Below, in pieces: positions 17,120 to 18,214 of a DNA stretch of 64,000 bases. Made by a program: the position numbers and the translations under genes. Position 1 is the first letter of the stretch. Each line of letters begins with the position of its first letter. Origin of the DNA: Nymphaea colorata (taxonomy: Eukaryota; Streptophyta; Magnoliopsida; Nymphaeales; Nymphaeaceae); assembly GCF_008831285.2 (NCBI RefSeq), contig NC_045138.2:36633115-36697114 (forward strand), given 5' to 3'. The notes under the pieces were generated by a model, which worked only from the letters and a program-made list of their open reading frames with translations, did not search any database and had not been told where the DNA came from.

Positions 17120-17560
17120 CTCCAATACAAGTATCCAGACAACCGGGATGACCACAGCGTCTTTCTGGATGATGGAGCCCGGTGTGAGAGCGACTGATTA
17201 GCGATCCTTCAATACAGAGAGAGGACGAGTATCCGTCGCTCCCGTCGTCGGAGATCGGGACGTTCCCGGCGTAGACGAGGGGGAGAAGATCCCCCACCGG
17301 CGTAGAGGCTGACGCCGGGGATCGTCCTACCGTTGCCCAGGAGGACATCGGCCGCGAAGGTTCGAACCATACTGCCAGCACCGACGGTGGTGATCCAGGG
17401 GAAGGCATTAGTGAGGGTCATCTCGCCGGGTCCCTCATTTCCCGCGGAGGCCGAGACGAAGATGCCGCGCTCCACCGCTCAGAAAGCGCCGATCGCATCG
17501 AGATAGTAAGGCACCACGCCACCACCGACGGAGAGCGAGATGACGTCCGCACCGTCTGAG
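17120..17560 (-). pseudogene. Subtilisin-like protease (SBT, S8) gene fragment, left arm
   Basis: Minus-strand translation gives the part of a plant SBT1-type subtilase between the catalytic His and Ser: an Ile-Phe-Val-Ser-Ala-Ser-Ala-Gly-Asn core holding the oxyanion Asn, then Pro-Trp-Ile-Thr-Thr-Val-Gly-Ala-Gly and Leu-Gly-Asn-Gly-(R)-Thr-Ile-Pro-Gly-Val. After a Tyr-Ala-Gly-Gly segment the frame shifts; the continuation in another frame carries Val-Tyr-Ala-Gly-Asn-Val and a Gly-Tyr-Ser-Ser-Ser-Leu-Cys motif typical of the family. Neither the catalytic Asp/His region nor the Ser region is present, so it cannot encode an active protease. The same frameshift occurs in the right arm. Confidence 0.85.
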
Positions 17561-17666
17561 ACCGCCTGATGGAAGGCCGAGAGAATGCCCGAATCGAAGC
17601 ACCCGGAGGTCCAGCAGACCTTGAACGCTGTAATCCTCGCCTTAGGCGAGGGGAGTCGCCGCCGGG

Positions 17667-18200
17667 ATGGCGCCGAAGGCGACGATTGCAGCGTACAAGG
17701 TCTGCTGGACCTCTGGGTGCTTCGATTCGGACATTCTCTCGGCCTTCGATCAGGCGGTCTCAGACGGTGCGGACGTCATCTCGCTCTCCGTCGGTGGTGG
17801 CGTGGTGCCTTACTACCTCGACGCCATCACAATCGGCGCTTTCGAAGCGGCGGACCGCTACATCTTCGTCTCGCCCTCCGCGGGAAATGGGGGACCCAGC
17901 GAGATGACCGTCACTAATGTTTCCCCCTGGATCACCACCGTCACCACCGTCGGTGCTGGCAGTATGGTTCGAACCTTCGCGGCCGATGTCCTCCTGGGCA
18001 ACGGTAGGACGATCCCCGGCGTCAGCCTCTACGCCGGTGGGGGATCTTCTCCCCCTCGTCTACGCCGGGAACGTCCCGATCTCCGACGACGGGAGCGACG
18101 GATACTCGTCCTCTCTCTGTATTGAAGGATCGCTAATCAGTCGCTCTCACACCGGGCTCCATCATCCAGAAAGACGCTGTGGTCATCCCGGTTGTCTGGA
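17667..18200 (+). pseudogene. Subtilisin-like protease (SBT, S8) gene fragment, right arm
   Basis: The plus-strand frame from 17667 starts [14 protein letters not shown], a hallmark of plant subtilases just after the catalytic His region. It continues through [16 protein letters not shown] and Tyr-Tyr-Leu-Asp to the Ser-Ala-Gly-Asn-Gly-Gly-Pro oxyanion motif and the Val-Gly-Ala-Gly segment. The family frame then switches by one base near 18040, leading to a premature stop at about 18123 in the first frame. Typical SBT proteins are about 750 residues; this fragment represents about 170. The ATG is internal to the family, so this is a captured piece and not a gene start. Confidence 0.88.
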
Positions 18201-18214
18201 TACTTGTATTGGAG

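Follow-up and report, generated by a model that had tools for sequence, protein, structure and literature searches.

A two-donor palindrome of subtilase and F-box sequence in Nymphaea colorata as a probable scar of fold-back templated insertion

How does a piece of a subtilase gene come to lie twice, in opposite orientations, within a cluster of repeats, and what, if anything, does the resulting hairpin do? The locus that raises this question, here called pSBT, lies in a stretch of 64,000 nucleotides of the water lily Nymphaea colorata (the window; C1:36633115-36697114), and we searched the whole 407.8-Mb assembly of 783 contigs for its sources. An earlier note had described a near-palindrome of 1.1 kb with arms of about 530 bp and a 22-base spacer, a geometry that was confirmed by arm alignment and by shuffling. 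The inverted arms occupy 17120-17648 (529 nt) and 17671-18214 (544 nt) and align in three blocks, 274 nt long and identical (100%), 111 nt long (88%) and 158 nt long (94%); the first is the longest exact inverted repeat at the locus, for which the maximum across 200 Markov-shuffled versions was 20 nt. The locus is also as GC-rich as had been claimed (0.61, against 0.29-0.53 in the remaining 1-kb windows), and Pfam Peptidase_S8 matches occur in both arms (1.7e-9 and 2.8e-7). Its description as two opposed subtilase fragments holds for the cores of the arms only; the outermost 83 bp or so of each arm are copies of an F-box locus, and the description also takes no account of the fold-back join or of the sibling palindromes reported below. 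Likewise, position 17120, given earlier as the start, is the edge of the palindrome, whereas the inserted DNA spans 17095-18214 and so begins 25 bp outside it. Elsewhere, the window holds an open reading frame with a sub-threshold match to a dual-specificity phosphatase (DSPc; 49251-49730, minus strand) and a tRNA-Glu gene (TTC; 37330-37404, minus strand). The latter is the sole RNA-family match in the window, and a known RNA family at pSBT was accordingly rejected.

The arms derive from two donors. A genome search with the left arm (five of five candidates scored) gave six matches, two being the arms of pSBT themselves. A locus on contig C11 (C11:13613426-13613896, within L007) matches left-arm positions 79-529 at 92%, C1:11619235-11619283 covers positions 1-47, and subtilases on C9 and C3 are distant matches at 68% and 66%. 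The C11 locus is a single open frame of 846 codons from stop to stop, with Inhibitor_I9, Peptidase_S8, PA and fn3_6 domains, and the captured piece corresponds to about codons 258-413 of the gene, numbered from MASW. This donor bears out the proposal that a subtilase gene piece was captured and copied from elsewhere; the alignment of the arms to the species' subtilase genes, suggested as a check, found a close match there for both arms (Table 1). The second donor is an F-box locus (L008) on C1, 25 Mb from pSBT, with an F-box open reading frame at 2317-2760 (minus strand) and, further on, one with a leucine-rich-repeat match. The two F-box pieces in pSBT are not adjacent in this donor, where the F-box exon separates them and the first probably falls within an intron. 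The 634-bp jump between them suggested a spliced or retrotransposed chimera, a candidate that we rejected because the skipped stretch contains the F-box exon itself. Both donors persist in place, as an intact subtilase open reading frame on C11 and an F-box gene on C1.

Table 1. Features of pSBT, its flanks and the neighbouring palindrome pG (window positions; L007, subtilase locus on C11; L008, F-box locus on C1; L022 and L024, other copies of the local repeat unit)
Feature	Position	Strand	Match or remark
Palindrome pG	3418..6967	.	3.55 kb; arms about 1.75 kb, 88% alike; short centre
pG core, left copy of L008 1741-2196	4719..5166	-	92.8%
pG core, right copy of L008 1741-2196	5235..5649	+	84.0%, with gaps
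Left flank, start of local repeat unit	17017..17094	+	L022 2093-2182, L024 1203-1292; L022 diverges after 2182
F-box piece 1	17095..17166	+	L008 2211-2284 (C1:11619210-11619283), 94.6%
Identical outer tract (putatively homogenised), left copy	17120..17393	.	0 arm-specific, 13 shared substitutions
F-box piece 2	17166..17202	+	L008 2919-2955, 89% over 37 bp; 634 bp beyond piece 1
Subtilase piece, left arm	17198..17648	- (sense strand)	L007 3927-4397, 91.9%; Pfam S8
Diverged inner part	17394..17940	.	22 arm-specific, 0 shared substitutions; 1 site different in all three
Subtilase piece, right arm	17633..18136	+ (sense strand)	L007 3890-4397, 90.3%
Spacer, 22 nt	17649..17670	.	Turn in quasi-palindromic stretch around 17633-17650
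Identical outer tract (putatively homogenised), right copy	17941..18214	.	0 arm-specific, 13 shared substitutions
Mirrored F-box pieces 2 then 1, outer end of right arm	18132..18214	-	Sequence match
Right flank, repeat E	18212..19732	+	Inverted relative to upstream-unit order; GAG in common with hairpin end; (TA)n at 19084-19187

Read from left to right, the locus consists of a repeat unit cut at 17094, the two F-box pieces (first 1, then 2), subtilase sequence in antisense, the turn, subtilase sequence in sense and the mirrored F-box pieces to 18214, after which repeat E begins. Neighbouring segments overlap at their joins by 0 bp (17094/17095), 1 bp, four of five bases (TTAGC/TTGGC) and 3 bp (GAG, 18212-18214), and at the turn 16 imperfect bp are common to the donor matches of both arms; all of these are short, raw lengths, uncorrected for chance. 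The arms are not simple mirror images. The right arm opens with L007 3890-3926, a stretch that the left arm lacks; hence the donor itself probably served for the turn, in addition to any snap-back of a finished left arm. At the other end, F-box piece 1 reaches 25 bp further in the left arm than in the right. The mirrored F-box pieces with their identical join imply that the outer right arm either was templated by the left arm or had its sequence replaced by that of the left.

The flanks place this insertion at a structural boundary. Repeated units occur at about 36.59-36.65 Mb of C1, two upstream ones about 16.2 kb apart. In two upstream units, L022 and L023, the counterpart of 16751-17018 is followed by the unit start (17017-17094) and then by repeat E running in the opposite direction. 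L024 has the unit start and part of E arranged in the same way, with another part reversed, and lacks a match to 16751-17018. Within the window, the left part keeps the orientation of the unit, inversion affects E (18258-21434) together with more of the unit as far as about 24471, and 25692-25997 is again in the original orientation. Relative to L022 and L023, pSBT therefore lies between a truncated forward unit on its left and an inverted unit on its right, that is, at the breakpoint of a local inverted duplication. A partly inverted copy of the unit is also visible between 16117-16751 and 23855-24471, with blocks up to 99% alike. Pure (TA)n arrays, which are known to be fragile, occupy 104 bp at 19084-19187, 86 bp at 8172-8257 and 68 bp at 2359-2426; the first two lie within copies of repeat E, and the second of these copies follows palindrome pG. 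Such fragility may have set off the formation of pSBT.

Comparison with the donors separates the arms into two parts with different histories. Across the 255 comparable sites of the inner part, 10 substitutions are specific to the left arm, 12 to the right and none is shared, and at a single site both arms and the donor all differ; one 6-bp and one 9-bp indel add to these differences. Across the 274 sites of the outer part (190 subtilase, 47 and 37 F-box), none is arm-specific and every substitution is common to both arms (Table 1), a contrast with a Fisher p of 7e-10. About 11 changes per arm in 255 sites predict about 12 in 274, close to the number of shared changes observed, as if the outer half of one arm had recently been overwritten. 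The simplest reading is gene conversion between the arms, which would account for the identical outer tracts. The inner changes are patchy, with none in 17504-17570, and together with a stop codon in the left arm the 22 arm-specific changes fit neutral decay. An origin of the arms from two different subtilase paralogues was considered and is disfavoured by the agreement of outgroups with the donor, itself weak evidence because the outgroups, from C9 and C3, resemble the arms at only 66-68% identity. Of 11 left-specific sites, 9 have the donor base in both outgroups and 10 in at least one; for the 11 right-specific sites, the figures are 3 and 8. The right arm's base occurs in at least one outgroup at 3 of 11 right-specific sites, and in both at L007 4107, which leaves room for a small input to this arm from another subtilase.

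pSBT has neighbours of similar make-up. Self-comparison of 154 kb around it revealed nine palindromes, confined to window positions -39907 to 18214 (negative positions lie upstream of the window); none was found in 88,337 bp of 14 other loci, a non-random set in which two loci (L057 and L058) overlap and 40 kb are outer flanks of this same region. The core of pG derives from the same F-box locus as the outer ends of pSBT (C1:11.6187-11.6192 Mb), and in the donor only 14 bp separate the piece in pG from that in pSBT. When part of the left arm of pG (3418-4818) was searched, with 40 of 373 candidates scored, weaker matches also appeared, on C13, on C3 and among dispersed repeats. A third palindrome, pE (L032; C1:36626977-36628233, window -6137 to -4881), comprises 1.05 kb of palindrome and a 204-bp extension of the left arm, and is built from three pieces, rearranged, out of the 5' part of one gene (C3:1786540-1787344) that, judged by eye from its sequence, appears extensin-like. 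Thirteen comparisons of pieces with their donors gave divergences of 2.7%-10.8% (170 of 2920 sites, mean 5.8%) that are statistically homogeneous (chi-square 13.1, df 12, p 0.36), with the qualification that the two arms of a palindrome are not independent. Changes shared by both arms number 16 of 415 sites in pG and 11 of 253 and 6 of 147 in pE, as against 0 of 255 in the inner part of pSBT; given these different histories, a single common event is not demonstrated.

Three of the nine palindromes belong to a single family, AT-rich and MITE-like (97.9-99.6% alike), and two of these three sit within a larger inverted repeat. At window -25801 to -22293, an inverted duplication of 3.5 kb (97%) adjoins a run of N, possibly reflecting an assembly problem, and holds two copies of a MITE-like 470-bp hairpin. 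Palindrome pF (C1:36631687-36632495, window -1427 to -619) is 809 bp long, with an 8-bp flanking direct repeat, GGGAGCTC, and is perhaps a hAT-like element; 81 bp of its ends recur within pG. Genome searches with pF and with pH (12732-13157) gave mostly dispersed or weak matches, and we claim neither as a palindrome made of gene patches.

We consider it likely that pSBT is a palindromic templated insertion, the scar of a break or stalled fork that was repaired by fold-back template switching. A DNA end in the break-prone repeat cluster would have been extended by copying two bits of the F-box locus in turn and then about 450 bp of the subtilase gene, and would have turned back at a short inverted stretch within the subtilase sequence. 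Copying would then have restarted on the donor's opposite strand and continued along the newly made strand itself, bringing back the F-box pieces in mirrored order, and the extended end would finally have been attached to a repeat unit in inverted orientation. We infer this mode and order of copying, and breakage or fork stalling as the trigger, from several features: unlinked donors are joined within one arm and recur in mirrored order in the other, with short overlaps at the joins; the right arm alone has L007 3890-3926, as expected if the turn used the other strand of the donor; and the setting is a breakpoint with two nearby palindromes of the same make-up, pG with its F-box core and pE with its extensin-like source. 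Homogeneous donor divergences, the absence of an exact target-site duplication and the failure to find a second copy favour this explanation further. Against it count the shortness of the join overlaps (0-5 bp), the unlike histories of the three palindromes, the possible input of another subtilase to the right arm and two observations from yeast: fold-back duplications at breaks were mostly 5-34 bp, far shorter than pSBT (PMC11724301), and inverted junctions were traced to replication error and not to breaks (PMC10766183).

A bolder extension, which we regard as tentative and rather doubtful, is that one burst of template switching in this duplicated region with its long AT arrays copied three distant genes (the F-box gene at 11.6 Mb of C1, the extensin-like gene at 1.8 Mb of C3 and the subtilase gene at 13.6 Mb of C11) into three or more palindromes spread over about 25 kb, and that in one or more of them conversion between the arms has since preserved part of the self-complementarity. 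The region would then be a nursery in which repair alone yields loci capable of forming double-stranded RNA against ordinary genes.

Fold-back repair has to be weighed against a gene-capturing transposon with inverted repeats (a Pack-MULE, Pack-TIR or foldback element) that carries the captured pieces within its terminal repeats. Animal Pack-TIRs do capture sequence, with microhomology at one or more breakpoints in 67.6% of cases (1-36 bp, median 2), and template switching has been proposed (PMC8277862). In the neighbourhood of pSBT, pF has its 8-bp flanking repeat. Yet pSBT, tested with either left end, pE and pG have no exact flanking direct repeat of at least 4 bp within 3 bp of their ends, a search that a mutated old duplication would escape and in which a 4-bp repeat arises by chance in 161 of 1000 random pairs. 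The ends of the palindromes differ from one another, and those of pSBT are F-box locus DNA and not the terminal inverted repeats of a transposon family; in a comparison that did not include a transposon library, the sequence at its ends had no matches beyond itself, the opposite arm and the F-box locus. Moreover, one copy of pSBT was found in the genome and no second, and the 10 of 36 window open reading frames that were scanned, none of which overlaps pSBT, had no match to transposase families. A simple transposon is rejected on the missing exact target-site duplication and the single copy, and a gene-capturing one appears unlikely. An assembly artefact, in which a single inserted piece was assembled as a palindrome or the arms were mixed, would make sense of the identical 274-bp outer tracts, and a run of N lies beside palindrome pB, 43 kb from pSBT. 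No assembler, however, would invent 22 arm-specific substitutions and two indels, each absent from the donor, and the arms are unequal, the left being the longer; we judge an artefact very improbable, with a small residual chance that a mix-up lies behind the identical tracts.

A different kind of alternative concerns what the hairpin does. According to the earlier note, a transcript would fold into a long duplex and might silence subtilase paralogues. The version weighed here has a read-through transcript that folds and is cut by Dicer enzymes, with small RNAs that would target the C11 subtilase gene or cause its methylation. Modelling supports the duplex, with a transcript predicted to form essentially one continuous stem (MFE -1137.6 kcal/mol), and 192 of 520 21-mers in the left arm and 180 of 535 in the right match the donor gene exactly. 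Inverted genes that arose by chance act in this way in Arabidopsis Cvi-0, where the VIM4-VIM2 and PAI repeats yield siRNAs (PMC13213937). The plural target is not supported: the C9 and C3 loci share no 19-, 20-, 21-, 22- or 24-mers with pSBT, which leaves the donor alone among the three subtilase loci compared, so that a single subtilase gene is, in principle, a possible target. The 22 arm-specific substitutions of the inner arms also speak against such a locus. C-to-T type changes, which should be raised under RNA-directed methylation, make up 9 of these 22, a raw count that points neither way. We therefore view a working small-RNA locus as quite unlikely and think that pSBT most likely has no function now.

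Even as a relic, a fold-back insertion of this kind would have wider meaning. The inverted-duplication model for the birth of small-RNA genes in plants requires a source of inverted gene pieces, and pSBT offers a concrete route, in which repair synthesis visits distant genes and folds back, giving at once a gene-matching hairpin while leaving the donor intact. It also allows the event to be dated, and the apparent homogenisation between the arms counters decay of the hairpin in the outer half. If the cluster were one event, it would be a plant germline counterpart of the complex templated insertions found in yeast and cancer.

Known systems share parts of this picture. In the model for young plant miRNAs, inverted copies of gene pieces could give a donor-matching hairpin, as at pSBT (PMC3237417); in contrast, the arms of pSBT have two donors, their inner parts are drifting apart and the locus is known from sequence alone. 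The VIM4-VIM2 and PAI loci of Cvi-0 resemble it in their inverted gene sequence, short centre and potential as siRNA sources, but consist of neighbouring genes that are transcribed and whose siRNAs were measured (PMC13213937), whereas pSBT is a gene fragment among repeats, characterized only at the level of DNA sequence. Captured gene fragments and possible microhomology at joins recall Pack-TIRs and Pack-MULEs (PMC8277862); unlike these, pSBT has a single copy found and neither recognizable transposon ends nor an exact target-site duplication.

Repair products come closer. Insertions at yeast breaks are, like pSBT, copies of distant loci, and complex ones commonly combine a pair of sequences from one locus, inverted relative to each other, for which microhomology-mediated template switching was proposed (PMC11724301). 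Those come from a laboratory break assay with mostly 5-34-bp local fold-backs, whereas the plant assembly has palindromes of at least 1.1 kb, and, unlike the yeast insertions, pSBT has two donors in one insert and one donor common to two palindromes. Large fold-back inverted duplications in humans turn at a short inverted sequence and leave a spacer unduplicated, as pSBT appears to do, but in them a chromosome end folds back on itself (PMC3907307), whereas the arms here are DNA from elsewhere. Shattered Arabidopsis chromosomes show microhomology of 2-15 bp and inversions, again with template switching proposed (PMC4461816). We found no description of clustered gene-patch palindromes in a plant in the literature searched, mostly by titles and the openings of abstracts. 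In its architecture, pSBT appears to fit the template-switch kind of repair, and what is unusual about it is its size, the two donors within one arm and the donor that it has in common with a neighbouring palindrome.
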